From contig CAMYKS010000018.1 of assembly GCA_947259115.1 (NCBI GenBank), positions 1 through 64,000 on the forward strand: 64,000 bases of DNA, given 5' to 3'. Under the pieces are notes generated by a model. That model was given only the letters and a program-made list of their open reading frames with translations. It searched no databases and was not told the origin of the DNA. The position numbers and the translations under genes are program-made. The DNA comes from an uncultured Desulfobulbaceae bacterium. Lineage in GTDB: Bacteria > Desulfobacterota > Desulfobulbia > Desulfobulbales > BM004. Every line of letters begins with the position of its first letter. Position 1 is the stretch's first letter. Below are positions 36,413 to 56,856 of this stretch, in pieces.

Positions 36413-36426
36413 GTTTTATCTCCTTA

Positions 36427-37581: not shown

Positions 37582-37634
37582 AACGCCACCTCTTGTTCGT
37601 TAAATTTATGTGTATTTTTATAGAAAGTTGCAAG

Positions 37635-37775: not shown

Positions 37776-37789
37776 TGTTGGTACCTCCC

Positions 37790-38212: not shown

Positions 38213-38256
38213 TTGAATTCTCCTTAAAATTGATTGTTTGTTCGTACTTATATTTT

Positions 38257-38288
38257 ACTGTAAACATTAGACCATACTACAGGGTCAA
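38257..38288 (-). promoter_or_regulatory. MerR-type promoter of the merR operon
   Basis: TTGACC, 20 bases, then TACAGT, read leftwards. Within the spacer and -10, CTGTA and TACAG form an inverted repeat that could be the MerR operator. The start codon of merR lies 45 bases downstream. Confidence 0.75.
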
Positions 38289-38483
38289 TAGTTATATGGA
38301 AATATTTTGCTACCATTTGACCAATGTATCGAATTGATTGGCCTATTCAGTTAACTTGCCTATGCTGCTGGACTTCGTGAAATGATGCTTGTAGTATTTG
38401 TTGATATCCGGAAAATCCGAGAACAAGAAGAGAGACTCGCCAGGCTCTCTCTTCATCATCATCCGGTTTGCGACAGACCGATA

Positions 38484-38891
38484 TTATCGGTAATATTTCT
38501 GCAGACGATCTTTGAAATCTTCGACGGACTCGCCGGGTATAATTTTAGGCCCGCTAATAAGCTTTGGTTCTGAAACATTGAACGTCGCCGTCAAACCTCC
38601 GTCAATATTTTTGATTTCCAGGGCCTCCAGCGGTACAGCAACCCTAGTATCTTCACCTATTCCGAGCATGCTTTTTCCAAGAACGACATAATTGATTTCC
38701 CCTGTAGCCGCGGCCAGATTTATATCCCGGATTATTCCGAGATGCTTGCCTTCAAGGTTGTCTACTTCCAGACCGATAAGCTGCGTGGCCGTATAAGTGC
38801 TTGCAGCCTTCACAATTTCGCCTGCAAATGACTGACTGGAAAACAACGCAACCGCCAGAATTGAGATCAATAAAATAATCTGTTTTTTCAT
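38484..38891 (-). CDS. Exported PRC-barrel protein
   Basis: The 135-residue product has a signal peptide ending SFAGE and a PRC-barrel domain: QLIGLEVDNLEGKHLGIIRDI, then INYVVLGKSMLGIGEDTRVAVP. PRC barrels are small beta domains that often bind partners or ligands. The gene has its own MerR-type promoter with a 20-base spacer and is therefore likely to respond to the same metal as copA. What it binds in the envelope is not known. Confidence 0.82.
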   Translation of the reverse strand: MKKQIILLISILAVALFSSQSFAGEIVKAASTYTATQLIGLEVDNLEGKHLGIIRDINLAAATGEINYVVLGKSMLGIGEDTRVAVPLEALEIKNIDGGLTATFNVSEPKLISGPKIIPGESVEDFKDRLQKYYR

Positions 38892-38936
38892 GATAATACC
38901 TCCATAAAATTGATTGTTTATCTATCCTTGTAATCT

Positions 38937-38968
38937 ATTATAAACATTGAACCATACTACGTGGTCAA
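38937..38968 (-). promoter_or_regulatory. MerR-type promoter of the PRC-barrel gene
   Basis: TTGACC, 20 bases, then TATAAT, read leftwards. The spacer ACGTAGTATGGTTCAATGTT matches those of the two other promoters at 16 or more positions. The PRC-barrel start codon lies 46 bases downstream. Confidence 0.78.
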
Positions 38969-39006
38969 GGGTTTAATTTAGCATTAATCACCATTTCGTA
39001 AGTAAA

Positions 39007-39043
39007 CAAAAAAAAGGACCGCAACCAGTTAAGGCTGCGGTCC
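39007..39043 (-). terminator. Rho-independent terminator of the RND efflux operon
   Basis: Read leftwards, GGACCGCA pairs with TGCGGTCC around a 12-base loop and is followed by eight or more T. It lies about 40 bases after the stop of the PII-like gene and ends the four-gene efflux operon. Confidence 0.85.
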
Positions 39044-39084
39044 ATAGAAAAACTCATTACCAGTGGACATCTCAATAAGTTATT

Positions 39085-39426
39085 TTATAACGCTGCTTTG
39101 TCCTCCTTCCCATCGCAAATGCGCAAAGCAGATTCTACCGAGGAAACAATGATTTTCCCATCACCCGGTTTACCTGTTTGTGCGTTTGCTCTGATTGTTT
39201 CAACTAGTAAAGGTACTAAGCTGTTTCTACAGATAATTTCAAAACGTACATAAATTGGAAAATCAAGAGAAAGTGGCTCCTGGTCCTCTTTGTTTTTTTG
39301 ATGGATTCCTCTGCGAACTTTTTTAACTTCGGACATGCTTGCCCCAGGGAAATCTTCAACTTGGTGAAGGGCAGATATAACATCGTCACGCAGGACGGGC
39401 CTTACCATGGCAATTATTCGTTTCAT
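39085..39426 (-). CDS. PII-like protein of a metal efflux operon
   Basis: The 113-residue protein has the PII fold pattern: MKRIIAMVRPVLRDDVISALHQV at the start, and GKPGDGKIIVSSVESALRI near the end, where GlnB has its nucleotide-binding strand. The T-loop tyrosine region is replaced by a charged segment (GIHQKNKEDQEP). Members of this subgroup are coded beside CusA-like pumps and may bind metal or a nucleotide to tune transport. Its start overlaps the pump stop by 4 bases (ATGA), so it is translationally coupled. Confidence 0.82.
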   Translation of the reverse strand: MKRIIAMVRPVLRDDVISALHQVEDFPGASMSEVKKVRRGIHQKNKEDQEPLSLDFPIYVRFEIICRNSLVPLLVETIRANAQTGKPGDGKIIVSSVESALRICDGKEDKAAL

Positions 39427-42400
39427 ACTTGCTTCCTCCTTTCTCCAATTCTATTTTCAAGCCCGCCGTATACGACAGGAATAACAAAGAGCGTCAAAAG
39501 TGTTGACGTTGCCAAACCAAAAATGACAACTGAAGCCAGCGGCCTTTGCACCTCAGAGCCAGCGCCAGTTGCAAGTAGAAGAGGCAGAAGGCCAAGGATT
39601 GTTGTCAAAGCAGTCATCAAAACGGGCCGCAATCGCAATAAAGCGCCTTCAGTGACAGCGTCATCAACGCTTCTTCCCCGCTCACGTAAATCGTTAAAGT
39701 AGGTGACTAGCACCATACCGTTTTGCACAGCAATTCCGAATAGAGCGATGAAACCAACCGAAGCAGGTACGGACAGATACTCTCCCATTATTAGTAAACC
39801 AAGAACGCCGCCTACCAGGGCGAGAGGAACATTGACCATGATGATCCCCGCCTGGCGCATGGAGCCAAAACTCATCCAAAGCATCAAGAAAACACCAAGA
39901 ATGACGATAGGGACAATAATGGATAACCGCGCCATTGCCCGCTGCTGGTTTTCAAACTGTCCTCCATACTCAATAGTATATCCGTCAGGGATTTTAACCT
40001 TTTCAGTTATATTTTGCTGAATATCTGTTACGACACTTCCTATATCTCTATTAAGAACATTTCCTTGTACTACCCAGCGCCGTTGATTCTTTTCACGATT
40101 AATCTGAATCGGCCCAGTCACCGCTTTGACCTCCGCCACCTGTCCCAGTGGAACTAACCCCCTACCAGAGGTTGCCAGCAGCATATTACGAATGGCCTCA
40201 GGATCACTACGATATTCTTCCTGATAGCGCAGATGAATACCGAACCGTCTAGTATTGAGATATATATTATCAACTACTTCACCGCCAACAGCCAACTCTA
40301 CCATTTCTAAAATCTGACTGACGCTCACCCCATAACGTGCACAGGCTTCACGGTCAGCTATGACCTGTATCTGGGGTTGGCCAAAACTCTGTTCCGTGCT
40401 CAAATCCACAAGCCCGGGTACATCTTCGATAGCTTCCTTTATCTCCTCCGACTTCTGACGTAGCACCGTCAGATCTTCACCGAACAGTTTGATAGCGAGT
40501 TGGGTTTTTACTCCAGAAAGTAACTCATCAAAAGAGTTTTGAATTGGTTGAGTAAAGTTAAATTGCACCCCTGGAACGACACTGATCTTTTTGCGTATGG
40601 CATCGATCAATTCGGCTTTGCTGGAAAAATTTTTCCAGTCTTTCTTTGATTTAAGTTCCAGGTGAATTTCACCGGTATTAACCGGGTGTGGATGGCTGCC
40701 TGCTTCTGGACGACCGATGCGAGAAACGGTCTCTTCTACTTGGGGAAACTCCAAAATTTTTCTCTCTAAAGTCATGACCGTTTTTGTCCCTTCTTCGAGT
40801 GAAATGGATGGGGCCATGGAGACTCCGATTAAAATGGAACCTTCTTCAAGGGTCGGAATAAATTCAGTACCGATAATTTTCAAAACGCCAAGGCTAATAA
40901 TCAGTGAAAGTGCCGAAAACAGGATTATGGCTTTCTTGAAACGATACGCTGCTGCCAACATGGGCCTGTATATGTTTGAGCACAATTTGATTAACCGATT
41001 TTCTTTGTGCTCTTCAGGTTTGATTAAATACAAGGACATCACAGGCGCTACCAGCAGAGCAAATAAAAGGGACCCTAATAAGGCAAATGATATGGTAAAG
41101 GCCATGGGGGAGAACATTTTTCCTTCAATGCCTTCCAGAGTAAATAATGGCAGAAAAACCAGTATAATAATTACGATGGAAAAGAGAATGGGCCGCCCCA
41201 CTTCCCGAGCAGCCGAGAGAATGACCCTCCCCTTGCTTTCACCTTTTGCTTTTTTTTGACCCATGTGGCGGTATATGTTTTCCACCATTACGATAGCGCC
41301 ATCACCGAGCATACCTATGGCTATGGCAATCCCACCCAATGACATCAAATTTGCCGATATTTCATTTAAATCCATAAAGATAATCGCCGTAAGGGCACAA
41401 ATCGGTAATGAAAGTGCGACAATAAATGCAGTACGCCAATTTCCCAGAAAGAGAGCCAAAACAAGTATAACAAGCAGGCCTCCCTGCCAAAGGGCTTTTA
41501 TTACTGTGCCTGTCGCATTGCTTACCAGTTCGGCTTGTTCATAGTAAGGAACCAATGCAACTCCTTCAGGAAGGGATTTTTCTACTTTTTCCACCTTGGT
41601 ATAAAGGCGTTCGATTACTTCAGAAGTATTTTCTCCATAAAGCTTCATGACAATGCCGGAAACAACTTCCTCTTTACCGTTTCTGGTAACCACACCGCGC
41701 CGAATTTCATTGCCATAGCTGATCTCACCTATGTCGTTCAGAGATATTGGGGTAGCGCCAATATTTTTTATTGGAATACTGGCAATATCTTCCAACTCTT
41801 CGATTAATCCGACTCCCCGCACTAGATGTTCTTCAGAACCAAGAACCAGAAACTGTCCGCCGACATTGCGATTATTGCTGTTGATCGCTGTAACAATCTC
41901 TTCAAGGCCAAGGTTATATTTTTGCAGCAGATTAGGGTCGATCTTTACCTGGTACTGCAGGACATGCCCTCCCATGGAAAGTACGTCCGTAACACCAGAA
42001 ACGGTTTGCAGCTGGAATTTCACCACCCAATCATTGATTTCTCGTAGCCAGGTAGACAGATCTTTGCCGCCAGTATCGACCTTGGTCGAATCTGCTGTCA
42101 AATAATAGATAAAGATCTGCCCAAGTCCTGTTGAGATGGGTCCCAATGAAGGCGGTTCATCCATTTCCGGCAGTTCTGCTGAGGCAGCTGCCAATCGCTC
42201 TGCAACAAGCTGACGGGCGAAGTAGATATCTACATCATCTTGAAAATAGACATAGACAACTGCCATACCAAACGCCGAGGTAGACTTGACCTGTGTAACT
42301 TTAGGCAGGCCATTCATTGCCGATTCAATGGGGTATGTAATTAAACGTTCAATTTCTTCCGGGGCCATCCCATGCCCTTCTGCGAAAACCGGCACCATTA

Positions 42401-42533
42401 CTGGGGATATATCGGGAAAGGCGTCCACAGGCATCTTCTGGTATTTAAAGATACCTGCGCCGATAACAACCAAAAGAGCAACTATCACTAAACCTGGACT
42501 TTTAAGGGCGGATTCAATTAATTTATTCAACAT
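39423..42533 (-). CDS. CusA/CzcA-family RND heavy-metal efflux pump
   Basis: The 1036-residue protein has the RND layout: membrane helix 1, a large periplasmic loop, helices 2-6 with GGIAIAIGMLGDGAIVMVEN, a second large loop and helices 7-12. It runs antiport of metal cations against protons. In the helix 4 motif the charged residue is a single Asp in GDGAIVMVEN, unlike the DFGIIVDGAV of CzcA or the MVDAAVVMIEN of CusA, so the metal cannot be assigned from it. It is coded with a membrane fusion protein and an outer-membrane channel. Confidence 0.92.
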   Translation of the reverse strand: MLNKLIESALKSPGLVIVALLVVIGAGIFKYQKMPVDAFPDISPVMVPVFAEGHGMAPEEIERLITYPIESAMNGLPKVTQVKSTSAFGMAVVYVYFQDDVDIYFARQLVAERLAAASAELPEMDEPPSLGPISTGLGQIFIYYLTADSTKVDTGGKDLSTWLREINDWVVKFQLQTVSGVTDVLSMGGHVLQYQVKIDPNLLQKYNLGLEEIVTAINSNNRNVGGQFLVLGSEEHLVRGVGLIEELEDIASIPIKNIGATPISLNDIGEISYGNEIRRGVVTRNGKEEVVSGIVMKLYGENTSEVIERLYTKVEKVEKSLPEGVALVPYYEQAELVSNATGTVIKALWQGGLLVILVLALFLGNWRTAFIVALSLPICALTAIIFMDLNEISANLMSLGGIAIAIGMLGDGAIVMVENIYRHMGQKKAKGESKGRVILSAAREVGRPILFSIVIIILVFLPLFTLEGIEGKMFSPMAFTISFALLGSLLFALLVAPVMSLYLIKPEEHKENRLIKLCSNIYRPMLAAAYRFKKAIILFSALSLIISLGVLKIIGTEFIPTLEEGSILIGVSMAPSISLEEGTKTVMTLERKILEFPQVEETVSRIGRPEAGSHPHPVNTGEIHLELKSKKDWKNFSSKAELIDAIRKKISVVPGVQFNFTQPIQNSFDELLSGVKTQLAIKLFGEDLTVLRQKSEEIKEAIEDVPGLVDLSTEQSFGQPQIQVIADREACARYGVSVSQILEMVELAVGGEVVDNIYLNTRRFGIHLRYQEEYRSDPEAIRNMLLATSGRGLVPLGQVAEVKAVTGPIQINREKNQRRWVVQGNVLNRDIGSVVTDIQQNITEKVKIPDGYTIEYGGQFENQQRAMARLSIIVPIVILGVFLMLWMSFGSMRQAGIIMVNVPLALVGGVLGLLIMGEYLSVPASVGFIALFGIAVQNGMVLVTYFNDLRERGRSVDDAVTEGALLRLRPVLMTALTTILGLLPLLLATGAGSEVQRPLASVVIFGLATSTLLTLFVIPVVYGGLENRIGERRKQV

Positions 42534-42548
42534 GATAAACCTCCACCT

Positions 42549-43889
42549 TTAATGTCCGTGCCCGGCATGTGCGCCAGCACCACTTGTTACATGGACAGCT
42601 TTTAACTCAAAAGCCCCCTTGGAAACATAACGATCACCAGCCTTAATCCCTGCCAAAATTTCTGTTTTTCCCTTTATACTTTTGCCGAGAGCAACTTCAA
42701 TTGTTTTAAAGCCATCATCATCAGGAACAAAAATGAAATTTTCTCCATCGATGTTTTGAACAGCTTCCGAAGGAACAACCACCGCTGAAGAGGGCGTTTC
42801 GCTATGAATTTGCCCTTTTACAAATATTCCTGGCTTCCAAAGGCCATTTGGATTTGGCAGGACAACTCTCCCTAAAACTGTCCGGCTCTCTTCGTTTACT
42901 ACCGGGCCAATCAGAGAAAGCTTTCCTTCAGTTACTTCGCCTTCTGTAGAAGATAACAGGATATGAAGACCCTCTTTTACCCGACCAAGGTCCTGAGCCG
43001 GGATCTGGAGGTCTACCCAGACCATAGAGAGGTCAGCAACAGTGAAGACCTCTCCCTCATCAATTTTTTCACCTCGGGTGATATGTTTAGCAATGATGGT
43101 TCCGGAAAGAGGTGACTTAAGCTCGTAACGGCCAAAGGCTTCATCCTTAGCACTCGGCAGATCATTAATTTCTTTCTCTGTCAGGCCAATAAAAATTAAC
43201 CTGCGCTTAGCTGAGTGTAACATTGTCTCGGCGTTTTGATGCACAGACTGTGCCTCAAGCCAGTCAGCTTCGCTGGCGATATTTTCCTGTTTTAAATACT
43301 GTTTCCTTTCAAAAGTACGTTTGGTTAATTCAAGGTTCCGAAGTTTTTCTAAGTAGTCGGCTTTCAACTCGGTTAATTCAGGAGAATCAATTGTGGCCAG
43401 GACCTGACCTTCCTGCACTTCATCGCCCAGGGAAATATTTACTTTATGGACAATTCCGGGAACCCTGGGGACAAGATGGGCCATTAGGTCTTCATTTAAG
43501 CGTACTTCACCGACCAATGACAAAATTTGCTCAATATCGCCAGAGTGAGCAATAGAGACAATCAGACCGATTTCTTTTTGCTGCTCCTCGGTTATTTCGA
43601 CAATGCCAGCCTCATCACTGTGTCCATGTTCATCATCTTCACTTTCTCCTTCATGTCCTTCGTCTTCACTATGGCCACTTTCCTCAGCATGCTCGTCTTC
43701 TTCATGCTCGTCCTCATCATGCCTGCCATCATCGTCATGATCATCGTTATCGTTATGCACCAGCTCTTTTTCCGGAAGGGCAGTCTCTTCAGCATTTTTT
43801 CTTTCATCATTGATGGCTGTTAGAGCTACGGCCCCACTAACTATAACGGCTAGAAAAACCACCAATAAAATTATATGTTTGTATTTCAT
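42549..43889 (-). CDS. RND periplasmic adaptor with a His/Asp/Glu-rich metal-binding region
   Basis: The 446-residue protein has a membrane-anchor start and then about 60 residues rich in His, Asp and Glu (such as HDEDEHEEDEHAEESGHSE), a likely metal sponge. A typical fusion-protein body follows: the lipoyl-like segment LGDEVQEGQVLATIDSPEL, a hairpin, and GTIIAKHITRGEKIDEGE. It ends in a His-rich tail (GAGAHAGHGH). It connects the pump to the outer-membrane channel. The acidic and histidine stretch favours divalent metals such as Zn, Ni or Co, but this is inference. Confidence 0.9.
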   Translation of the reverse strand: MKYKHIILLVVFLAVIVSGAVALTAINDERKNAEETALPEKELVHNDNDDHDDDGRHDEDEHEEDEHAEESGHSEDEGHEGESEDDEHGHSDEAGIVEITEEQQKEIGLIVSIAHSGDIEQILSLVGEVRLNEDLMAHLVPRVPGIVHKVNISLGDEVQEGQVLATIDSPELTELKADYLEKLRNLELTKRTFERKQYLKQENIASEADWLEAQSVHQNAETMLHSAKRRLIFIGLTEKEINDLPSAKDEAFGRYELKSPLSGTIIAKHITRGEKIDEGEVFTVADLSMVWVDLQIPAQDLGRVKEGLHILLSSTEGEVTEGKLSLIGPVVNEESRTVLGRVVLPNPNGLWKPGIFVKGQIHSETPSSAVVVPSEAVQNIDGENFIFVPDDDGFKTIEVALGKSIKGKTEILAGIKAGDRYVSKGAFELKAVHVTSGAGAHAGHGH

Positions 43890-45265
43890 GATAAATCCCT
43901 TTCTGTTGTATCATTATTTTTAGGAGATAATACCGGTGCAGATGTTGCCCCTTTACCGATAAGGCGCTCAATTTCGATTCTGCTATTTTCCTGTTCTAGA
44001 AGCAGATTGAGATGGGTTCTGCGGGTATCAATCCAGGTCCTCTGTGCGTCCAATAGGCTGAGGATATCTAACTCGCCTGCATTATATGCCTTGTTGATTG
44101 ATTCATAGGCATTTTGTGCTACAGGAAGCACTCGAGACTCCAGTGATTGAACAGCTTTCCTGGAAGAAACCAGGGTTTGCCAAGCCTCTTGCAGTTCTGT
44201 ATAAAGGTCCAGTAGTTCAGCCTCATTTTCATAATGCACCTTGCGGGACAGAGCTTTTGCTTCAGCAATGCCTCCCTGGTTTCTATTAAATAAAGGAAGT
44301 GGAATACTTATCCCCAGGAAAAAAGCATGGTCGTTGGTTTCATTAAAATGTTGAATACCGCCTGCCAGTTCCAAGTCAGAAGCTTTTTCTGCCACGGCCA
44401 GATTAAGATTGGCATCAGCCCCAGCTAATTGTGCCTCCATGAGATACCATGCAGGGCTCTGCTTAATAGCTTCTTTCAGCTCCTGTTCCGTAAAATCTGG
44501 GACAGGTTTATATTGGGCTGAGATTTTTGAAAAACGAGGAAATTGTGCCCCCCATGACGAAGCTAAAATATACTTTGCTGCCTCAAGTTCTCTTCTGGTC
44601 TGTTCGATTTCGACTTCCGCCATTGCCAGTTCTACTTGACTTTTAGTAAGATCAAGAGGCGAGGTGTCACCAACTTTAACCCGCTTGACAATAACTTCAT
44701 GTATCTTGCTGATAAGTTCTACCTGCTCCTCCTGAAGACTCAATAGTTCTTGTAAAGTAAAAACTTTAACAAAACGTTTCTCGACCTGAGCCTTGATTTC
44801 GATAATTTCTATCTGGTGCTCAAGGTCGGCGATTCTAATTGCAGCCTCAGCTTCGCTAACCCGTTTGTTGATTTTTCCGCCAAGTTGAAACTCCTGGCTG
44901 ATGCCTACCCGGCTGGACATGGCATCGGTTCCAGAATAATCTCCTGAGCCACCAAATTCTTCAATTTCTCCGAACAAGGCCGGGTTAGCAGGCAAGCCAG
45001 CCTGTTGTGCTTTTCCTTGTCTGGCTATTATTTCATGCCAGGTTGCACCTAGAGATGGATGGTTATTAATAGCTGTTTCCAAGGCCCAGTCAAGAGTGAG
45101 CGGATCGGCAGGCTTTTCGAGTTTTGCTGGAGTCTCTCCAGTTAAAGTGTATTGCGGCTGAACAAGCTCTGCACTTGAAGAAGCGGCCAAACAATTATTT
45201 GGCATAGTGTATTCAGCCATAAAAAGTGTCATGGTTAAAGACACCCATAGAACCGAAAATTTCAT
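43886..45265 (-). CDS. TolC/CzcC-type outer-membrane channel
   Basis: The 459-residue protein has a signal peptide and two OEP repeats: LDWALETAINNHPSLGATWHE in the first half and the coiled helices with LTKSQVELAMAEVEIEQTRREL, then LGISIPLPLFNRNQGGIAEA. The latter is the typical signature of CzcC-like channels. It forms the outer exit of the RND pump. It overlaps the adaptor gene by 4 bases and is the first clearly linked gene of the pump operon. Confidence 0.9.
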   Translation of the reverse strand: MKFSVLWVSLTMTLFMAEYTMPNNCLAASSSAELVQPQYTLTGETPAKLEKPADPLTLDWALETAINNHPSLGATWHEIIARQGKAQQAGLPANPALFGEIEEFGGSGDYSGTDAMSSRVGISQEFQLGGKINKRVSEAEAAIRIADLEHQIEIIEIKAQVEKRFVKVFTLQELLSLQEEQVELISKIHEVIVKRVKVGDTSPLDLTKSQVELAMAEVEIEQTRRELEAAKYILASSWGAQFPRFSKISAQYKPVPDFTEQELKEAIKQSPAWYLMEAQLAGADANLNLAVAEKASDLELAGGIQHFNETNDHAFFLGISIPLPLFNRNQGGIAEAKALSRKVHYENEAELLDLYTELQEAWQTLVSSRKAVQSLESRVLPVAQNAYESINKAYNAGELDILSLLDAQRTWIDTRRTHLNLLLEQENSRIEIERLIGKGATSAPVLSPKNNDTTERDLS

Positions 45266-46074: not shown

Positions 46075-46590
46075 TTATTTCTCAGCCAGTAGCTGGTCCA
46101 GGCGGGCTTGCAGTTTTATAAGTTTGGCATCGAAGCTTGTTGTGTTTAAGAGATCAAAAAACTGTATCTTCCCTTTATCATCAATAATCAGATTTGACCC
46201 GATAGCGACTTCTGAACGTGAGAGATCCGGCAACAGGTTTGGTGGCGAATAACTTGCGGCGACCTCTCCCTTGAGATCCAGCAGGACCGGGAAAGTAAAT
46301 CCTCTCTTACTGGACCATCTAGCCGCCACTTCTTTGCTTTCTTTTACATCGATGATGAGAACCTGGACATTCCGATCCTTATGTTCTTTCCAGAGTGCTT
46401 CAAGATGCGGAGCCTCCGCATTACAGAATGGTCACCAGCTTGTTGCAAAGTGGATGACGACGAAATTGTCGAGCAGATCGGCAAGGGCTACATTCCCACC
46501 CTGTAGGGTTTCCAGATTGAATGCAGGGGCAGTTTCTCCAATTTTAGGCTGCGGGAGTTCCTCAGCAAAGCCGCTTACTGGAAAAGTCAT
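46075..46590 (-). CDS. TlpA-like thioredoxin selenoprotein with UPFC motif (in-frame UGA at 46432-46434)
   Basis: The frame encodes a thioredoxin domain: GETAPAFNLETLQGG, VVIHFATSW, then UGA, then PFCNAEAPHLEALW. The UGA replaces the first cysteine of the expected WCxxC, giving WUPFC. After it the frame continues with LIIDVKESKEVAARW and the C-terminal strands. A perfect hairpin, TGCGGA/TCCGCA with loop GGC, begins 11 bases after the UGA. An ATG with a GAGG site lies at 46646-46648. It would give a fine signal peptide if one extra T after it were absent, so the coordinate uses the first in-frame ATG. The true start is probably upstream, through a frameshift or sequence error. Confidence 0.8.
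46406..46420 (-). promoter_or_regulatory. Candidate bSECIS hairpin of the TlpA-like selenoprotein
   Basis: Six paired bases (TGCGGA with TCCGCA) around the loop GGC, starting 11 bases after the UGA on the coding strand. Bacterial SECIS elements lie within the coding sequence just after the UGA and usually have a G in the apical loop, as here. Confidence 0.75.
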
Positions 46591-46739
46591 AAGGAGCAGC
46601 AGAAGTATAAGAACATTATTTTTAAAAGAAAAAAATCGATTACGACATAGTCGTTATCCTCGCTTGAAAACTGTTAAAAGTGAATAGTAACTGAGACAAT
46701 TTTAATTAGTCACAGATACACACCCATAAATAAACCTTT

Positions 46740-47588
46740 TCATATATTTTTGTTCTTTTCTTTTCCAGATGGTTCACGCCCGCTCCGGTTAATAGGATAC
46801 GCACCAGGATCACCGACGAAAGGTAACGCTAACAACCAAGGAAGTGTAAGTCGTTTCTGGTCACGGAACTGTGAAAGACCAATTGTCATTTCTTCATGAC
46901 CAGCCGCTGGTTGAGCTCTGTATGTTCCAAACAGCCTGTCCCACCAAGGAAAATTAAAACCGAAGTTACTGTTTGTTTCTCTGATGACAACTGAATGATG
47001 TACTCGATGCATGTCTGGAGTTACCACAATAAGGCGAAGCAATCTGTCAACACCAGAAGGCATATGGATATTTCCATGATTAAACATTGAGGTTCCATTG
47101 AGAAGAACTTCAAAAAGGATTACGGCGAGAACTGGAGGACCAATAATTACAACTGTGGCTATTTTAATACCCATGGACAACATGACCTCTATGGGATGAA
47201 ATCTTAGTCCCGTTGTTACATCTACATCAAGATCTGCGTGGTGCATCATATGGAGACGCCAGAAAACCGGGACCGCATGAAACATTACATGTTGGAAATA
47301 GATGATAAGATCAAAGGTTAGGACTGCTATCAAAATTTTGATGGGATACGGAAGGGAGATCTGGTTAAGTATTCCGACTGAGGCTTGACTAGCTGCAAAG
47401 GAGGCGGCAAGAACAGGGAAAATTCCTCTTACAACTGCGGTTCCCAGAACAGTAATACTTATATTGCTGAACCAGCGAACGGTTTTTGAAGTGGTGAATT
47501 GGCGCCGGGGTGACAGAAATTCCCAAATCGCAACAGCAACAAAGATACCGAAAAAAGCTGTAAGCCTTACGGATACCTCATTAATCAT
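46740..47588 (-). CDS. Sterol desaturase/fatty acid hydroxylase superfamily membrane protein
   Basis: The 282-residue membrane protein has the di-iron histidine clusters of the superfamily: FQHVMFH, HMMHHADLD and HRVHHSVV, spread between four or so membrane helices, with NFGFNFPWWDRLFGTY near the end. These enzymes oxidise lipid carbons at a di-iron site. Finding one in a selenium/sulfur redox operon is unexpected. It lies 3 bases after the thioredoxin-like gene, so co-transcription is clear, but the lipid substrate is unknown. Confidence 0.88.
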   Translation of the reverse strand: MINEVSVRLTAFFGIFVAVAIWEFLSPRRQFTTSKTVRWFSNISITVLGTAVVRGIFPVLAASFAASQASVGILNQISLPYPIKILIAVLTFDLIIYFQHVMFHAVPVFWRLHMMHHADLDVDVTTGLRFHPIEVMLSMGIKIATVVIIGPPVLAVILFEVLLNGTSMFNHGNIHMPSGVDRLLRLIVVTPDMHRVHHSVVIRETNSNFGFNFPWWDRLFGTYRAQPAAGHEEMTIGLSQFRDQKRLTLPWLLALPFVGDPGAYPINRSGREPSGKEKNKNI

Positions 47589-47591
47589 AAT

Positions 47592-48020
47592 TCAGCCTGC
47601 ATCTCCGGAAAACTCCTTCTCCTTTAGAGCTTTTTCAATGGCTGCCTCAAGTTCTGTTGGGTGTGGTACGGTTGTAAAGGTTACTTCTCCGTTTATAAGG
47701 ATAGTCGGTACTTTCAGCATCTTCCCTGCCTTTTCACATAAAGTCAAAAAATACCTGGCGTCCTTCTCGTCCCCTTGCCTGATTACTGTGCGAATATCGA
47801 TCAGACCTTCGAATTTTTCAGCAATCATATCTACAGTGTTAATCGCAAAATCATAGAGGACACAGTGGACACGTTCGCAGATTATTTCGACAAGAACGGG
47901 TGCTTTTCCTGTGGCTACCCGTGGCTGAATAGGCTCATAAAGATCATCTGGTATGCTATGCGTTTTACAACCGGAAGATTCTTCACTAAGTACTTCAATT
48001 TCTAGATCCTTTTTAGACAT
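47592..48020 (-). CDS. Thioredoxin-like protein with a CxxxxC pair
   Basis: The 142-residue protein has an N-terminal tail with one cysteine, then a thioredoxin-type fold: VLVEIICERVHCVLYDFAI (CxxxxC), later the cis-proline segment LKVPTILINGEVTFTTVPHP and a closing helix. It probably works as a soluble thiol carrier in the cytoplasm since no signal peptide is seen. Its spacing to the DsrE gene (32 bases) and to the desaturase-family gene (3 bases) shows membership in the selenium operon. Confidence 0.75.
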   Translation of the reverse strand: MSKKDLEIEVLSEESSGCKTHSIPDDLYEPIQPRVATGKAPVLVEIICERVHCVLYDFAINTVDMIAEKFEGLIDIRTVIRQGDEKDARYFLTLCEKAGKMLKVPTILINGEVTFTTVPHPTELEAAIEKALKEKEFSGDAG

Positions 48021-48052
48021 TGGATATGACCTCTTTTTATCTTATTTTTCGA

Positions 48053-48412
48053 TTACCAGGTAATTGATTCCCGGTCTGCCATTTCAGCAGCAATTGTCGG
48101 GATATGAATTATCTTGACACCTTCAACAAGTTCATCTTCGGAAATATTGTAGGTTTTGGCGCAGGCGCCACATAAATACATCGGAACTTTTTCCTCGAGC
48201 AAGATAGGGAAAAGGTCTCTGACAGGGGCAAAATTTCTTCCTTCGATGGTTTCGGCCACACCTTTCTTGGCTAAATGAGCGCCTTCAAAAATATAAAATA
48301 TAACCAAATCAGCATTTTCACTGAGAAGAGATACAGCAAGTGCAACAGCAGCGTTTGCCCTGTCCTGGTCATCGGTGGAATGGGTGATAATCAAAACATA
48401 TTTTTTGTTCAT
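48053..48412 (-). CDS. DsrE-family sulfur-carrier protein
   Basis: The 119-residue protein has a DsrE/TusD-like fold: VLIITHSTDDQDRANAAVALAVSL at the start, DLVIFYIFEGAHLAKKG, and the cysteine segment MYLCGACAKTYNI with two cysteines where family members carry a persulfide. It should accept and pass sulfane sulfur in the cytoplasm. It lies 20 bases after a second, longer DsrE-like gene, and the two may form a heteromer as TusBCD and DsrEFH do. Confidence 0.85.
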   Translation of the reverse strand: MNKKYVLIITHSTDDQDRANAAVALAVSLLSENADLVIFYIFEGAHLAKKGVAETIEGRNFAPVRDLFPILLEEKVPMYLCGACAKTYNISEDELVEGVKIIHIPTIAAEMADRESITW

Positions 48413-48432
48413 GTGTATCTCCTTTATTGAAA

Positions 48433-48852
48433 TTAAAAAACTAAATTCATGTCAGCTTTCATGACAATATCAGTGTAATAGGTTTCGGGGTCTGCAAGGG
48501 TGACACCTTCGATGAAGTCATCATCTTCAAATTCAAAAACACTTTTATTGAGTGGACAGGCCAGAAGCCTAGCCCCCTCCATGTGCAGCATGAGCAGCAT
48601 GTCTTCCGGCATTGGCAGGTTCATTGCTTCCATGCGGGCCATTACTTTCTGCTGTTCTTCCTCCGGCTGGTCGGGCAAGCATTTAAGGTCGTTAATTTTT
48701 TCTTTATGCACCGCGTTGATGCCTCGTGATCCGAAAAAAACGGTTACCTCAGCTCCGGCTCGCTGTAAGCTCAAAGCGGTCATCAGGCCGTTGAATACCT
48801 GGCAAAGTTCATCGTGAAAAATCATAATAGATGCATTTTTGTGTTCACTCAT
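48433..48852 (-). CDS. DsrE2-like protein
   Basis: The 139-residue protein has IMIFHDELCQVFNGLMTALSLQRAGAEVTVFFG, typical of the longer DsrE-like (DsrE2/peroxiredoxin-like) group, and a second cysteine segment ARLLACPLNKSVF. One of the two cysteines probably carries a persulfide. It lies between the GGPU selenoprotein gene and the shorter DsrE gene with spacers of 41 and 20 bases. Confidence 0.8.
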   Translation of the reverse strand: MSEHKNASIMIFHDELCQVFNGLMTALSLQRAGAEVTVFFGSRGINAVHKEKINDLKCLPDQPEEEQQKVMARMEAMNLPMPEDMLLMLHMEGARLLACPLNKSVFEFEDDDFIEGVTLADPETYYTDIVMKADMNLVF

Positions 48853-48893
48853 GACACTTTCTCCTTATCTGAGAGACAATAAACTCAGTTTGT

Positions 48894-49211
48894 TTACTTG
48901 CCGAACAATTTACTCATAACGCCCTTTTTCCCCTCCTCCGGTTCCGGAAGTTTCAGTTGTCTACAGATTGCCACCTCAACTGTATGATCATCTATATCCT
49001 TTCCCTCTGTTATGATCGCTTCACCTACCATGATGGCTGGGGCAACCGGCAGATCCAGGGCAAAATATTCATCAGTTAGATACTCGGATTTTGGTTTTGA
49101 CATGACTTCAATTTCAATGTCATATTTATCGCCCAACCTGGGCATCATTTTGTAAAAATGTTTTCACGGGCCGCCATTCGGCTCATTCATAAAAAAATGT
49201 ACCTTCAGCAT
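48894..49211 (-). CDS. Small thioredoxin-fold selenoprotein with GGPU motif (in-frame UGA at 49164-49166)
   Basis: The 105-residue protein starts at an ATG preceded by AGGTGAC, 9 bases after the stop of the rhodanese fusion. It reads KVHFFMNEPNGGP, UGA, KHFYKMMPRLGDKY, then LPVAPAIMVGEAIITEGKD, a strand-helix-strand and cis-proline pattern of the thioredoxin fold. Sec16 takes the place of the second cysteine of a CGPC motif, while the first position is Gly. A GCCC/GGGC hairpin with loop AGGTT begins 20 bases after the UGA. Starting after the UGA would lose the first strand and the active site. I do not know a characterised family with this motif. Confidence 0.82.
49131..49143 (-). promoter_or_regulatory. 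Candidate bSECIS hairpin of the GGPU selenoprotein
   Basis: GCCC pairs with GGGC around AGGTT, beginning 20 bases after the UGA; a T-G pair can extend it by one. The loop contains GG. It is the weakest stem of the five, but its position and loop agree with the others. Confidence 0.65.
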
Positions 49212-49220
49212 ATTGTCACC

Positions 49221-50957
49221 TCATCTTCGTAATACTTTTTGCATGTGAATAATGAAATCTTTCGGCTTCATGAATTCAACCAGGCGTAGATCATGACGCT
49301 CCTGTCCGTTACCATCCAAAAACACCACTGTTGGAACTCCTTTAACATTATAGTCCTGCAAAAGTTTCTGATATTCAGGATTATCGTCAGTGGTCAGATC
49401 AACCTTTACCATCAGGAACTGTTTAGATTCAGCTAACACTTTTGGGTCATGAAAAGTTATTTCATCCAGTTCCCTACATGGTGCACACCATGTAGCATAA
49501 AAATCTATAATCACTGGCTGCCCCTGCTGTCTTGCTTGTTCCATAACAGTGCCAGAGTATGTCTGCCAGGCCACACCCGGCTGACGCAGCAATGTGGAAG
49601 CGGCTAGAAAAATAGCCAAACTAATGCATAGCAAACCTATACTTTGCTTAATCCACGGGAAGCCTTTGAATGTAGCTTTGCTTTTATCAAGCCAGGCAAG
49701 ATGAATCCCTGCTGACAGGGTAATAACACAATAGAGTACTATACTGGCAGTTTTGGGCAGCAGGGGCCGGAGGAAGTAAGCAGCCATGCCGACCAGTACC
49801 CACCCCATAAGTTTTCTGATCCAGACCATCCACTCCCCTGATCGGGGAAGTTTTTCAAGTTTTCCGGAGAAAAGGGCAAGTATGAATAAAGGGAGTCCCA
49901 GCCCAAGGCTTAACGAAAAGAAAATAATAAAACCGAACCCTGGACTGCCGATGCTGGCGATCCAAGTGAGTAATCCCAGTACAAACGGGCCTATGCAGGG
50001 TGCAGCAATGATACCCAGCGTAAGTCCCATAAAGAGAGTGCCGAAATAACCGGTATAGGATTTTGAAGCAGCTTGCGTGAGACCCTGTGGCAACCGTAAT
50101 TCCCAGAGACCAAAAAGGCTTGATGAAAAGGTAAGCAAGATAACAGAGACACCCACCAGTACCCAGGCATTCTGTAACATGGCTCCCATCAGACCGCCTG
50201 TCAGGGCAGCAATGATGCCCAGGGTAGAATTTGTGATAGCAAGCCCTGCTAGATATGATAAACCGTGCGCAACAAGTTTCCCCTGACCCCGACCACTACG
50301 TCCTCCAAAATAAGAAACAGTGATGGGAATAAGAGGATAGACGCAGGGTGTCAGGTTGAGAGCCATCCCACCAATAAAAACACCTAACAGAGTCCACAGA
50401 AGTGTCATGCCGGTAGGCGCTTTGTTTTGGGGGGAGGAACTCGCTCCTTGGAATTGCAGAACATTGAGGTTTTCTGTTTTAGCAACGGGCAGACCGTTAT
50501 CATTCCATTCTGGGTAACCCTGCGGATAACGGTAAACATTTTTGTAGCCTAAAGAAACAGCCACCCGGGCTGCTGAGTCACTGCGGACTCACGTCAGGCC
50601 TGCTCAGTAGAACACCAGGGTTTTAGTTTTGTCAGGTCCAAGAAACTGTTCAAGCGCACCACGCTGGGTCATTCTGGCCAGCCAGGTCGGTTCCATAGAG
50701 AAGAAGGCGGCACCCTTGATATATCCCGCATGATATTCCCACTCCTGTCGTGTATCTACCAGGAGCAGGTTATTATCAGCCTGCTGGTAAAGTTGCCACA
50801 GTTCATCCATGTTAATGAGCTGATAGCCGCCTCTTTGGGCTTCAGCTTGGACATCAGCATTAGATGCAACTTGAGGTTTGGCTATGCATTGTTGACTGAA
50901 GAAAACACCAACTGCAAGGATAATTATTATTGATGAAATCCGGACTAATTTTCTCAT
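49221..50957 (-). CDS. Rhodanese-DsbD-thioredoxin fusion with two selenocysteines (UGA at 50604-50606 and 50589-50591)
   Basis: The frame encodes about 578 residues: a signal peptide (ending IAKP), a rhodanese domain with LLLVDTRQEWEYHAGY, a DsbD-type membrane domain with LTPCVYPL and AAPCIGP, and a C-terminal thioredoxin with FYATWCAPCREL. The rhodanese active loop reads FY-U-AGLT-U-VRSDSAARVA. Non-selenium relatives have FYC-GG-xx-C at these places, so both cysteines, including the catalytic one, are replaced (Sec118 and Sec123). Frame and homology continue across both UGA codons without a gap. Each UGA is followed by its own hairpin. The ATG at 50957 precedes the signal peptide; an in-frame TTG at 51005 is less likely. 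Confidence 0.88.
50558..50572 (-). promoter_or_regulatory. Candidate bSECIS hairpin for the second UGA of the rhodanese fusion
   Basis: CAGCC pairs with GGCTG around CGGGT, starting 16 bases after the second UGA; a G-T pair can extend the stem. The loop holds GGG. Confidence 0.7.
50574..50591 (-). promoter_or_regulatory. Candidate bSECIS hairpin for the first UGA of the rhodanese fusion
   Basis: TGAGTC pairs with GACTCA around CGCAGT, starting 12 bases after the first UGA. The second UGA forms the base of this stem, so both decoding signals overlap. Translating the second UGA must open the hairpin that served the first. Confidence 0.7.
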
Positions 50958-51008
50958 GCTGTAACTCTTTCCTTCAAAGATCGAATCATAAAATGTGGGC
51001 TTCAATCA

Positions 51009-51788
51009 TTAGCCGAAAAATGCTGACATCAAAATACGGACAGCCGCAACAGCAATTAATACTCCAAGAATTTTTCGTAATTTTACAACCGGCACCCTAT
51101 GGCTCAATATTCCACCCAGTTGAGTTGCTGGGATTACGGTGAGCACGATGGGTACAGCAAGTCGCCATTCTATTTGGCCTGTAAACGCTTTACCAAGAAA
51201 ACCTGCGGCTGAAGACAGCAGTACAATTGCCAGATTACTCCCAATGGCAATGCGGGTTGGTATGTGTACAAATGATGTCATTAAAGGAATGAGGATGAAA
51301 GAGCCACCCTGACCGACCATCCCACCAAGAACCCCAACACTCCCCGCAGTTGAAACCGCACGCCATAAGCTGAAAGAAAGATCGGTAACATCCGGCGTCT
51401 TCTTTTCTTTTGCTCTTGGCATAAGCATCAGTATTGCAGCAAAAAACGCAAGTGCTCCAAAAACCAGAAGAAGTAAATGATTTGATGCGTATCCTGATCC
51501 AGCACCTCCAAGCAATGCAGTAATAAAGATGGTCGCCCCCATCCACCCTGCAAGTCGTATAGAGACAGAATTAAAGCGTTTATGGACAACAACACCAGAA
51601 ATACAGGCGACTAGTCCCTGTACAATGGTAAGTCCTGCAACAGTATGCATGGAGAGCTGCTCAAAGCCTAATAATGGGGGCACATAAAGGAGCAAGGGTG
51701 CCATGATGATGCCGCCACCAATTCCAAGTAATCCTGAAAGGAAACCACAGATTACTCCCAGAAAAGCAATAAGCAGATAAATACCCAT
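51009..51788 (-). CDS. TauE/SafE-family membrane permease
   Basis: The 259-residue membrane protein has the two-repeat layout of the family: GVICGFLSGLLGIGGGIIMAPLL in the first repeat and GGMVGQGGSFILIPLM in the second, with about eight helices. Members export sulfite, sulfoacetate or other sulfur anions, and some move other anions. It lies 4 bases after selD and about 50 bases before the rhodanese fusion, so it probably moves the sulfur or selenium compound that this operon handles. Confidence 0.88.
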   Translation of the reverse strand: MGIYLLIAFLGVICGFLSGLLGIGGGIIMAPLLLYVPPLLGFEQLSMHTVAGLTIVQGLVACISGVVVHKRFNSVSIRLAGWMGATIFITALLGGAGSGYASNHLLLLVFGALAFFAAILMLMPRAKEKKTPDVTDLSFSLWRAVSTAGSVGVLGGMVGQGGSFILIPLMTSFVHIPTRIAIGSNLAIVLLSSAAGFLGKAFTGQIEWRLAVPIVLTVIPATQLGGILSHRVPVVKLRKILGVLIAVAAVRILMSAFFG

Positions 51789-51792
51789 GGAA

Positions 51793-52842
51793 TCAAACCA
51801 CCGTAATACCTATTGGTTCGTCGATGATTTCGCCAATCCGAGTTGCAGGGATATTGTCTTTTTGCATTTGACTCATCAATTCATTCGCTTGATCATGTGG
51901 AAGAGACAATAGCAATCCACCGGAGGTCTGAGGGTCATAAAGCAGTTCCTCCTCAGCAGCTGTCAATTTGGCTGCCATTTGTAAATGATGTTTTGCAACC
52001 ATTGCTCGATTCCCTTTATTGCTGCCCGTTGTCTCACCTTTTTTATACATCTCCAACGCAGCCGGATAAATTGGTAGAGCTTTATATTTAACAACAACTC
52101 TGGCATCACTGCCGTGAGCAACTTCCAGCAAATGACCCAGGATACCGAAACCTGTGATGTCTGTGCAGGCGTGCAAGTCAAACTGCAGAGCTAATTCCAT
52201 AGCCCTCCCATTCAAAGCAGCCAGTGTCGGCAGGGTGTTGCTCTCCAGTTCTTTAAAAGACAACTTGCCGGAACGTACGGCATTAAAGAGCACGCCTGAC
52301 CCGATGGGCTTGGTAAGAATAAGAGTATCGCCCGGTTGTGAACCTGCATTCGTAATGACCCTGTCCGGATGAACAACTCCATTTACGCAAAGTCCATATT
52401 TGGGTTCCTCGTCATCAACTGTATGGCCACCTACCAAACAAGCTCCAGCCTCTACCACCTTGTCGTGACCGCCACGAAGTATGTCTCGGAGCATACCCAT
52501 ATCGAGATGCTTGCTTGGAAACATTACAACGTTTAAGGCAGTGACAGGCTTACCCCCCATGGAATAAACATCTGATATTGAATTGGCTGCAGATATTTGA
52601 CCAAACCAGTAAGGATCGTCAACCGGGGGAGTGATGAAATCAACGGTATTGATCATGGCAACATCTTTTGATAGCCGGTAAACCGCTGCATCATCGGCGG
52701 TTTCTATGCCGACTATGAGGTTAGGATCAGTTGGGGTTGGCAAGCCTTCAAGTGCTTCCGACAGAGCCGTCGGACTGATTTTTGCTGCTCAACCACAGGT
52801 GCGGGCTAGGCCGGTAAGTGTCTTTTTTTTAAAAATTTCCAT
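51793..52842 (-). CDS. selD: Selenophosphate synthetase SelD containing selenocysteine (UGA at 52789-52791)
   Basis: The 349-residue enzyme makes selenophosphate from selenide and ATP for selenocysteine synthesis. The frame starts with an ATG preceded by AGGAACC and reads LTGLARTCG, UGA, AAKISPTALSEAL. The UGA is at the catalytic position (Sec18), where other SelD proteins have Cys or Sec. Then follow GIETADDAAVYRL, CTDITGFGILGHLLE and LLYDPQTSGGLLLSL, all typical of SelD. A CCGAC/GTCGG hairpin begins 15 bases after the UGA. It is the first gene of the nine-gene selenium operon. Starting at the TTG at 52743 would drop the active site. Confidence 0.95.
52758..52773 (-). promoter_or_regulatory. 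Candidate bSECIS hairpin of selD
   Basis: CCGAC pairs with GTCGG around GGCTCT, 15 bases after the UGA on the coding strand. The GG in the loop fits the bacterial SECIS consensus. Confidence 0.75.
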
Positions 52843-53140: not shown

Positions 53141-53807
53141 ATCGAGTAGGCGGCGGGGTCACCCCCCTGCCTCTCACACCACCGGGCATACGGTTCCGTA
53201 CCACGGCAGTTCCTTACGTTGATATTATTCCAAATTTTCGTAATTGTCCGAGCAGTGATATCAACCCCAGGACATCAAAGTACTTCTTTGGCAGGGCGTA
53301 GTTCGTGTACGACGCTCCTGAGTTATACCAGGGGCCTCGCCCGTTGAAGGCCGATGCCGCTGCTCTTTCCTCTGCTATTCCACGCTTCATCAAATTCTTG
53401 AGACGTGTCCATGACCGTTTCCATTGACGCCAGACGATCAGGCGCAACCTCCTCCTGATCCATTGGTCAAGTTCTTCCGCATAGCCTTTATTTTCCGCTA
53501 GGAGCCTGTCGGGGAATTATAATCGTAACGAAAAATTGAGGAATTGAGATCAAATTTTCGGGAAATTGATGCGAATAGCAGCGCTATTTAAAGAATGCGG
53601 AACCTTTCCACTGACTCTGCAGATACTCTGATTCTGCTCTCCTTATGGGATGTGAATGAATAGCCGAGAAATTTCCGCTGCCACGGACGGGCTACTGCGC
53701 TCTTGGCTTTATTTACCTTGAGCTTCAGCTCCGATTCCACAAAACGCCTGATTGAGTTCATCACCCGTTCAGCGCCGAGTCTGCACCCAACATAGATGTT
53801 GCAGTCT

Positions 53808-55194
53808 AGGGTAAAGGAATGGCTCTCACCATTCCCTTCCCATCCCACCGTACGTTCAGTTTTCCCGAATACGGCGGTCCGATAGTCTTCATCTTAAATC
53901 ATGCACAGGTTTCGAAACATACTCCAGCATGCCGCTGCCTATGTAAACCATTCCCATAGCATACAGCTTCCTGTTTGGGTATTTATCCCACCCAAAACCT
54001 CGGCCTTTACTTCTGAAGGTCAAGTATCTTCGAAATCGAGTATTAACAAACCGCTGCAGCCGCCGAAATGCATCACTGGCATTTGTGTGACGAAAATAGT
54101 TTACCCACCCCATCACAATTGGTCTTACCAGTTCAACAAATTCTTTTGGACTGATTGGCGCTCTTCTGGACGTTAAATATTTCAGCCTATTACGAATCTT
54201 CTGCTGCGCTTTCTTTGCAGGAAAAATGTAAATGGTATTCTTTCCCGTCGTCGGACTTTTGCGCTTCCTGAAATTGAATCCGATAAAATCAAAACCATCT
54301 GTCAATTTCGTGATATGCGTTTTATCCTTATTCAGAGTAAGATCCATTCGTTTTGCGATGGCTTTAAATGCGGACAAGGCAGGGTACCACCGTTTGGCTT
54401 TGGTATCATTACCCGCCGTACTGGAGTAAACTGGTAAACTTGATCTCGCAGTTGCTTTTGCAAATGAAAAATTATTTCACCTTCTTGACCATTATCTACA
54501 ATTTGATCAATCGCAACACCATCTATTCCAGGCGCACCTTTGTTCTCCTTGACTTGCCGCCAGGATTCCCAAAGGACATCTTCGCGCCACAACTTATCGT
54601 ATAAACTGTAAAATCTGAACGTCCCCTCCTGCTTGGATTTAAGATATAGGGCTCTCTGAAGTCGCCGAACGTTATCTCTGTTCATAGCCTTTTGGCAATC
54701 AGACATCCTCAACTCCTTCAAACTCCATTAACTAAAGTAGAACCCCTTTCCTCTCCCCTGGTTTCCCAAGCGATGATAACGGTACTATGAGCCCCGCGGA
54801 ATCCTTATACAGCCAACATGGACTTCGGCTCTGCCTTATACCATGCCGTTTCCCATAGCCAGTGGGACTGCATAAGGCCTCCCGGCCTACGACGTAAAAC
54901 ATTCACAGCGTGCAACCCTTAACACCCCGGCACCCAAAGATAGTTCTTCTGACCATTATATCCCTATCTCTTGACAGCCTTCCCGAGCAGACGATACGGT
55001 CGGCAAGTGCAAGCACGTATAACGAGGCTAATTCAGGTTCACTTTTGTTGCAGCCCGCTGTTTTGCATCTATCGTTCAAAGTCACTTGAGCCTACAGATC
55101 ACTCCATAAACCCGACTTCCTGCTAGACGCCCGAATGGTCAATTGGCGTCAGGGGACTTCCACCCCATATGTTCTACGCCTGTACCGGCGTGCC
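53808..55194 (-). mobile_element. Second group II intron, inserted in the catalytic motif of the outer one
   Basis: This 1.39-kb element interrupts the outer reverse transcriptase between the two aspartates of FADD (GCTGAT before it, GACTGC after it). Its right end has a domain V/VI-like structure (GTATTCGGGAAAACTGAACG, then GGGAATGGTGAGAGCC and CCATTCC). Its left part holds about 450 bases of non-coding RNA-like sequence. It carries its own reverse transcriptase gene with the catalytic core deleted. Precise ends are estimated from the outer reading frame. Confidence 0.65.
53889..54721 (-). pseudogene. Inner-intron reverse transcriptase with the core deleted
   Basis: The frame from 54721 gives a typical group II reverse transcriptase start (LWREDVLWESWRQVKENKGAPGIDGVAIDQI) up to RRVMIPKPNGG. 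In another frame, from about 54377, it goes on with KAIAKRMDLTLNKDKTHITKL and the maturase end FVELVRPIVMGWVNYFRH. Palm motifs such as the catalytic YADD are missing between the two parts. The protein family of the inner copy differs clearly from that of the outer copy. Confidence 0.75.
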
Positions 55195-56856
55195 ATCAGC
55201 GAACCGAGTCAATCGATACCCCTTTCGACGCATCTCTCGATCAAACGGAGTTAAAAGAACATTACTGATCAAGGGCGAAATCACCCCACCTTGGGGGACG
55301 CCTCTTTGTGTTTGATGGACCTTACCATCTTCCAGATAGCCAACTTTCATGATGGACTCAAGCAACACCAATACACGTCCGTCCGCTACCCGTTGATTGA
55401 GCAGCACCATGAGCTTTTCGTGAACTGCCGATCCGAAAAAGTCTTTTAGATCCGCATCCACTACCCACTCATAGCCTTGTTCAACCTCGCATTAGATCTT
55501 GCGCAATGCATCTTTCGCTGATCTTCTTCGCCGATATCCAAAGCTGGCCTCATCGAACACCGGTTCAAAGATAGGTTCAAGCCGGTTCAGTAGCGCCTGC
55601 TGACACACCCTATCATAGATAGTTGGTATGCCAAGCGGACGAAACTTGCCAGGCTGTCCACTCTTGGGTATTAGATGCCGCTTCACCGGTTGAGGCTGAT
55701 AAGTCTGTGTACGCAGCTCATCATGTAATCGTTTGAGGTTCCCTTCCAGGTTCCTCTCAAAGTCATCGATGCTCTGCCCATCTACTCCGCCTGACCCTCG
55801 GTTGCGCTTCACCTACTCCCAAGCCAACTCCAAGTTCTTCAGCTTGTACACTTTATCCACTAATGAGTGGACCTTCTTCTCTCCTGTTGGATTCAGCCAG
55901 TGCGCTAATCTCCTCGGTCTATTGCCTAGGGGTTTTTCACTTAGGGAACTTATCCTTGCCATATACCTTACTCATTAGTTGACTGTCTTACTCCAGCCAC
56001 CTTGTCGACTGCCTTCCCCAGCTCACTCCGCTGCCGCATTGTGCGGTCACCCTACTTTCGTAGAACTTAAGGTACTATTCAGTCGTCCGACGACTCATAG
56101 AACATCGCTTTCCACTTCGCTTTCACTTATAGGATCACTTATCTCAGTGCCACCTGAGAATCCTATGAGCCCTCCTGGGGTCACGCATTGATCTTCCACA
56201 CCGTGCCATCCGCACACACCTTGGTTCGATGGGTGAATAAGAACGCCTTCGCCTCCATAGTGCAGGCTCGACCTTGCCCCATCTTTGGCCGACCGGTTCA
56301 TCTGTAGGGTCGCCCCTTCGATTACGGCCCGGTGTTTCTCCTCAAACCCTTCGGATTCCACCTCACGATGGACACCCTGTCCTCCACAGCCGACTCTTCG
56401 ACTCTAGCCAGCGAGGCATTACCCCCGCTTTTGGATACAGCGCCCCTTATCTGAGCGCTGGAGGGACTTTAACCCTCCTGATCAATGCGCTGCCCAGCGC
56501 ACACTATGACCTCGGCTGACTTCTCATGATACATCCTGATACTTCTCAGCATCAGTAGCACTAAGGCATATCATGAGATCTCCCCGGGTAATGCGCACTC
56601 ACCTTCACGCTTATGCCCGCCACATATACGTCCGTGCCTTCCGTACAGGTATTGGACTTTGAAGATAATCGCCTTCTCATCCGACACGACCGCCTCATAT
56701 GTGATTCCTGTTCGTCAGGCCAGCGCTTTGCCTGCGGCTTCCTTCAGTCAACACCTCACGATGTCAGCCTTGCCGTCCGGCTAATACTTCCCCCTATCGG
56801 GTGTATAGAGGACTTGCACCTCCAAGTAAGTGCGCCCTGCCGGGCGCACAACTAAA

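Follow-up and report, generated by a model that had tools for sequence, protein, structure and literature searches.

What would a cluster of selenoproteins be doing next to a gene for selenium supply? This question is raised by nine minus-strand genes at positions 46075-52842 of a 64,000-nt stretch of DNA from an uncultured Desulfobulbaceae bacterium (the window, meaning the whole stretch analysed). The genes run in the order selD(U) - tauE - tsoB(UU) - tsoC(U) - DsrE2-like - DsrE-like - thioredoxin-fold - fatty acid hydroxylase - TlpA(U), where U denotes selenocysteine (Sec). A sequence-only reading had described them as an operon with short spacers, mostly below 60 bases, and had proposed a selenium-dependent envelope pathway, an interpretation that our analysis partly supports. 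The spacers, stop codons excluded, are 4, 51, 9, 41, 20, 32, 3 and 149 bases; seven of the eight thus agree with the short spacing claimed (3-51 bases), and only the TlpA-like gene is loosely attached to the cluster, because its spacer is 149 bases.

Selenocysteine recoding in the nine-gene cluster

The predicted selenoprotein genes and their hairpins are as follows.

51793..52842, minus: selD, selenophosphate synthetase, Sec at UGA 52789-52791 (TIGR00476)
52757..52774, minus: selD SECIS-like hairpin, UCCGACG-GCUC-UGUCGGA, with hardly any variation among 7 SelDs of the Tso-linked clade
49221..50957, minus: TsoB, with signal peptide, rhodanese with UxxxxU, DsbD transmembrane domain and C-terminal thioredoxin with CAPC (NF045694; PF00581, PF02683, PF13899)
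50574..50591, minus: hairpin UGAGUC-CGCAGU-GACUCA, placed to suit the first TsoB UGA and containing the second, its three inner pairs almost unchanging across 42 relatives
50556..50574, minus: SECIS-like hairpin 3' of the second TsoB UGA (window ranking and RNAalifold of relatives)
48894..49211, minus: TsoC, small thioredoxin-fold selenoprotein with NEPNGGPU motif, UGA 49164-49166 (NF045708)
49130..49144, minus: SECIS-like hairpin of tsoC (RNAalifold, 102 relatives)
46075..46590, minus: TlpA/ResA-like thioredoxin with Sec (SWUPFC), UGA 46432-46434, start uncertain (PF00578, 93.8 bits; NF002854, 69.4 bits, below cut-off)
46405..46421, minus: SECIS-like hairpin of the TlpA-like gene, AUGCGGA-GGC-UCCGCAU, in the top 1.6% of the TGAs of the window

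When TGA was read as Sec, the four genes gave LARTCGUAAK (SelD), VFYUAGLTUVRSD (TsoB, UGAs at 50604-50606 and 50589-50591, UAGLTU), NEPNGGPUKHF (TsoC) and TSWUPFC (the TlpA/ResA-like protein, in which Sec stands in place of the first Cys of the usual CxxC). Each of the five in-frame UGAs occupies a redox position. SelD scored 352.5 bits against TIGR00476 (cut-off 125) and has the catalytic Sec/Cys residue. The family models of TsoB (NF045694, 935.8 bits, cut-off 805) and TsoC (NF045708, 143.4 bits, cut-off 45, with the NEPxGxxU motif) aligned uninterrupted across the UGAs. Loss of Cys or Sec at these sites in relatives would have spoken against the sequence-only reading; among fetched relatives with a recognisable motif, Sec was kept in 96 TsoC sequences, with Cys in 1, and UU in 42 of 42 TsoB sequences. 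Since the TsoB and TsoC matches cross the UGAs and Sec is near-universal in relatives, these in-frame UGAs are not due to chance.

A hairpin resembling a selenocysteine insertion sequence (SECIS) was found 3' of all five UGAs, at SECIS distance and with a G near the start of the apical loop. Ranked against all 2548 TGAs of the window, each of the five falls within the top 1.6-4.6%; among the four genuine TGA stops of the cluster, three were unremarkable and that of the fatty acid hydroxylase gene reached the top 9%. The RNAalifold energy was -7.33 for the tsoC hairpin in 102 relatives and -11.1 for the two hairpins after the TsoB UGAs in 42 relatives. In neither case were any of 200 synonymous-codon permutations as low, and paired cells and double changes also beat every one of the 200 permutations. 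The tsoB and tsoC hairpins are thus conserved across relatives beyond this control, which permutes synonymous codons within alignment columns; the encoded protein and the codon usage are thereby preserved, relatedness is not. When all 27 SelDs were pooled, RNAalifold gave no common structure because two SelD clades place their hairpins differently; each clade alone has one.

The host genome encodes tRNA-Sec (70.8 bits) and SelB (368 bits), which, together with the in-frame UGAs and the SECIS-like hairpins at the right distance, complete the hallmarks of bacterial selenoprotein genes. As the family matches cross the UGAs, the hairpins are conserved and the Sec machinery is present, we rejected the possibility that the UGAs are frameshifts or pseudogene stops. 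The four selenoproteins and five UGAs of the sequence-only reading were borne out in this way, and, on sequence evidence, we consider the predicted cluster to be real and well supported.

The cluster as a predicted variant of the Tso operon

The proteins that the sequence-only reading called rhodanese-DsbD-Trx and GGPU are TsoB and TsoC, and we are close to certain that the system is Tso. TsoR (NF045707), TsoA (NF045695), TsoB (NF045694) and TsoC (NF045708) are named NCBIfam families, and the Tso "three-selenoprotein operon" is credited to Haft & Tolstoy 2025 in a 2026 review that lists TsoA, TsoB, TsoC, TsoX and TsoY (PMC13188914). Thus, the claim that no such system had been described was mistaken for the core. 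The name Tso is a recent one. An AlphaFold2 model of TsoC showed a small thioredoxin-like fold (mean pLDDT 92.4), and its matches in the PDB were headed by thioredoxins, weakly so (best E 0.0022), with ArsD low in the list. Another Sec rhodanese, with FYCGGPTU, was seen at L151:4219-4536; it has Cys at the position of the first Sec of TsoB, making a natural Cys/Sec pair for UxxxxU.

Relatives were gathered by whole-genome searches with TsoC, a contig scan with TsoB having yielded few, and flanking genes were compared by targeted searches and a Pfam tally. TsoC scored above its family threshold in 30 of 395 genomes of a phylum-wide sample and in 64 of 258 genomes of the order, and its matches almost always hold exactly one internal TGA. 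The usual arrangement is tsoR-tsoA-tsoB-tsoC, at times with a second tsoC. As compared with this operon, the TsoB and TsoC of the window are full members, with the same Sec positions, adjacent and in the same order, whereas TsoA and TsoR are missing, and the cluster has SelD, TauE, DsrE2, DsrE and a thioredoxin-like gene in addition.

TsoA (the LULAXC selenoprotein) had no match in the 91%-complete assembly of the host, while the identical search finds TsoA in 5 of 13 genomes. No hidden TsoA was found in the window or genome with positive controls that worked, and the Cys-type DsrE was rejected as a TsoA, having no match to NF045695. There is no ArsR-type gene among the nine genes, the search for TsoR not being extended to the rest of the genome. 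Because TsoA is without a match, we call the predicted operon a Tso variant and not a full Tso operon; it appears to be devoid of the usual 5' part (tsoR, tsoA) and to start instead with selD(U) and tauE. Near Tso loci (at L114:7091-7988 and L120:777-1621), we observed a separate pair of selenoprotein genes, in which a TsoA-like protein (EHUIKEC) accompanies a TlpA-like protein with Sec (HWUPKC or HWUKKC).

Recurrence of the added genes beside Tso

The remaining members of the cluster are listed below.

51009..51788, minus: TauE/SafE (TSUP) membrane protein, 7 hydrophobic segments (PF01925, 147.4 bits)
48433..48852, minus: DsrE2-like carrier, 139 aa, no transmembrane segment, Tso-associated subfamily (PF13686, 48.8 bits)
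48053..48412, minus: DsrE-like carrier with LCGAC motif (PF02635, 63.7 bits), a homologue lying 16 bases upstream of the host's other selD
47592..48020, minus: thioredoxin-fold protein with conserved IICERVHC, a Cys version (NF047660 weak, below cut-off; AlphaFold2 model with PDB thioredoxin matches)
46740..47588, minus: fatty acid hydroxylase / sterol desaturase family membrane protein (PF04116, 93.3 bits)

The analysis bears out the chalcogen-carrier families and the membrane electron path named in the sequence-only reading. The name DsrE2-like is used because the protein scored 23.4 bits with NF047629, well below the cut-off of 210, and matched Pfam DrsE_2.

Could mobile elements simply have brought the Tso core together with unrelated genes for selenium and redox functions, with no pathway in common? 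Pieces of a group II intron and broken reverse-transcriptase-like ORFs are found at 53214-56765 (minus), immediately upstream of selD, and suggest that mobile elements were once active at the 5' end of the predicted operon; no other genome of the sample has exactly this gene order, and the tlpA spacer is long, both as such gathering would have it. Against this, the spacers are otherwise very short, the genes share a single strand, and the same partners recur in five or more families. Tso lies beside DsrE2, DsrE, TauE or SelD in 14 other loci of the order, for example as TsoA-TsoC-DsrE2-DsrE-SelD (L115), TsoA-TsoC-DsrE2-SelD-TauE with one DsrE2 gene split in two (L114), SelD-TauE-TsoC (L120) and TsoA-TsoC-TauE-DsrE2-DsrE (L146). 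Selenium supply is coded together with its users, as in the sequence-only reading, and the grouping of Tso with SelD, TauE, DsrE2 and DsrE recurs in relatives. The DsrE2 subfamily is present in 19 of the 258 genomes of the order, 16 of which have TsoC, as compared with 50 of the 239 others (Fisher p=3.8e-8); by genus, the two occur together in 11 of 13 (p=3e-4). In 13 of the 16 genomes having both, they are no more than 2.5 kb apart on one contig. The three DsrE2 genomes without TsoC comprise two incomplete assemblies and the near-complete G145. At L207:9867-13366, away from Tso, the genes after DsrE2 code for a flavoprotein resembling sulfide:quinone reductase and for a membrane protein of the MMPL type.

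The SelDs tell a similar story. The host has two Sec-containing SelDs, that of the window and one on contig C39 (G000:C39, L162:7130-8546), where a DsrE homologue lies 16 bases upstream of it and the neighbourhood is free of Tso genes; the DsrE-SelD link is therefore independent of Tso. The Tso-linked SelDs from five families and the host's second SelD form one clade (support 97/98), separate from 19 other sampled SelDs of the order. Since the Tso-linked SelD is the sole SelD found in several genomes (G406, G407, G409 and G601), it probably serves Sec synthesis. Given the co-occurrence of DsrE2 with TsoC and the Tso-linked SelD clade, the added genes do not appear to be accidental, and we regard a chance neighbourhood as very improbable.

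Possible delivery of selenium to SelD

We tentatively favour the view that the cluster relays a chalcogen in a selenium-dependent manner and that SelD probably receives selenium from it, although we hold this with less than even confidence. Selenium is the more likely cargo because the linkage with SelD and DsrE is recurrent. In this view, Tso (TsoB and TsoC) has been built into a selenium-supply module consisting of the distinct SelD, TauE, DsrE2 and DsrE, with tsoR and tsoA lost or never present.

From the genes, Sec codons, SECIS-like hairpins, family membership and recurrent linkage described above, we infer the substrate, the direction of transfer and the hand-off to SelD as follows. TauE would take an anion of sulfur or selenium through the inner membrane. 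In periplasmic or membrane-bound TsoB, the UxxxxU motif of the rhodanese may hold the chalcogen in selenyl-sulfide or perselenide form, and the DsbD channel and CAPC thioredoxin domain would bring cytoplasmic electrons for its reduction. The reduced chalcogen, protein-bound and non-toxic, could then be ferried by TsoC, DsrE2, DsrE and the thioredoxin-like protein to SelD, which would make selenophosphate for Sec, including the Sec of its own operon. DsbD-type proteins normally send electrons outward to the periplasm, and uptake with passage to cytoplasmic carriers therefore needs an extra step, presumably TauE.

Selenophosphate synthetase has a Km for selenide that lies at toxic concentrations, and how selenide is brought safely to SelD is an open question, for which rhodanese and thioredoxin are candidate delivery proteins without physiological proof (PMC8538045). 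A selenium relay accords with these proposals and with YedF, a DsrE-domain protein with CGXC linked genome-wide to SelD (PMC5322559). The YedE/YedF-selD genes (PMC5322559) resemble the present cluster in that a sulfur-type membrane transporter is encoded near selD along with a DsrE-domain protein whose motif resembles CGXC; the window differs in having TauE/SafE for YedE and separate DsrE and DsrE2 for the SirA-DsrE fusion, joined to Tso selenoproteins. The Sec-assisted organometallic (SAO) system is likewise a large operon with several selenoproteins, but has ABC transporter and organometallic lyase families, and membership in SAO was rejected as no SAO family matched in the cluster.

Several observations weigh against a relay to SelD. 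Most Tso loci outside the order have no SelD, TauE or DsrE nearby (L051-L080), and the Tso core may therefore do something else, the SelD link only meeting selenium demand. The exact gene order of the window occurs in no other genome of the sample, and the fatty acid hydroxylase and TlpA fit no delivery pathway. The ArsR-type gene ahead of canonical Tso may point to metal(loid) sensing.

The sulfur families offer a less likely, though plausible, alternative, in which the cluster would be an envelope redox pathway handling sulfane sulfur or sulfite, with Sec making it fast and selD included only for its high selenium need when on. Rhodanese, DsrE, DsrE2 and TauE are mainly sulfur families, and the flavoprotein that follows DsrE2 at L207 fits such a role. 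So does the host, a sulfite-reducing bacterium with dsrA (dissimilatory sulfite reductase, 572 bits). In the TusA-DsrE2-rhodanese relay of sulfur oxidisers, DsrE2-type and rhodanese proteins serve as protein-bound sulfur carriers; both kinds occur in the window, but TusA is absent from the nine genes and the rhodanese is fused to DsbD with two Sec. However, Sec demand alone leaves unexplained both the separate clade of linked SelDs across families and the DsrE-SelD pair outside Tso.

We consider it unlikely that the cluster serves metal(loid) or oxidant defence, with TsoB and TsoC reducing or binding a soft metal(loid) through Sec under an ArsR-type metalloregulator. Such a role would suit the ArsR-type gene found upstream of canonical Tso in 49 of 53 upstream ORFs scanned (TsoR being named a metalloregulator), the VTT (DedA-type) genes among ORFs downstream of Tso in relatives (21 of 72 scanned), the ArsD match of TsoC, and the following metal-resistance block, immediately downstream of the cluster at 36026-45265 (minus).

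39423-45265, minus: CzcCBA-type RND efflux
within 36026-45265, minus: PRC-barrel-like protein
37790-38212, minus: MerR-family regulator
36427-37581, minus: YHS/Mer-like membrane protein
36026-36412, minus: small protein

Metal-efflux genes, however, are not among the common Tso neighbours of relatives, no Cys of the ArsR-type regulator is conserved in half of its sequences, linkage to DsrE2 and SelD is not expected of a metal system, and the locus has neither tsoR among its nine genes nor a tsoA match in the genome.

Extending selenium delivery to Tso in general is more speculative, and we offer it with some doubt: the Sec rhodanese-DsbD would capture and reduce selenium at the membrane, and TsoC and DsrE-type carriers would pass it, protein-bound, to the dedicated SelD clade. 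If this is true, selenium supply would depend on selenocysteine itself. The locus and its relatives link Tso with a separate SelD clade and with carriers of DsrE type, and thereby give both a testable function.

Additional features of the accessory genes

The TlpA-like gene has a single in-frame ATG; a signal-peptide-like stretch, FKNNVLILLLLLMTFPVSGFAEE, at 46591-46680 (minus), spans this ATG in frame and extends upstream of it, and no standard start codon precedes the stretch. A fatty acid hydroxylase gene downstream of tsoC was also found at L051, L065, L070, L126 and L136. The thioredoxin-like (IICERVHC) family is rare, occurring in 8 of the 258 genomes of the order, and the host has a second copy of the cluster's protein, 81% identical, at G000:C14:95280-95651 (L175).

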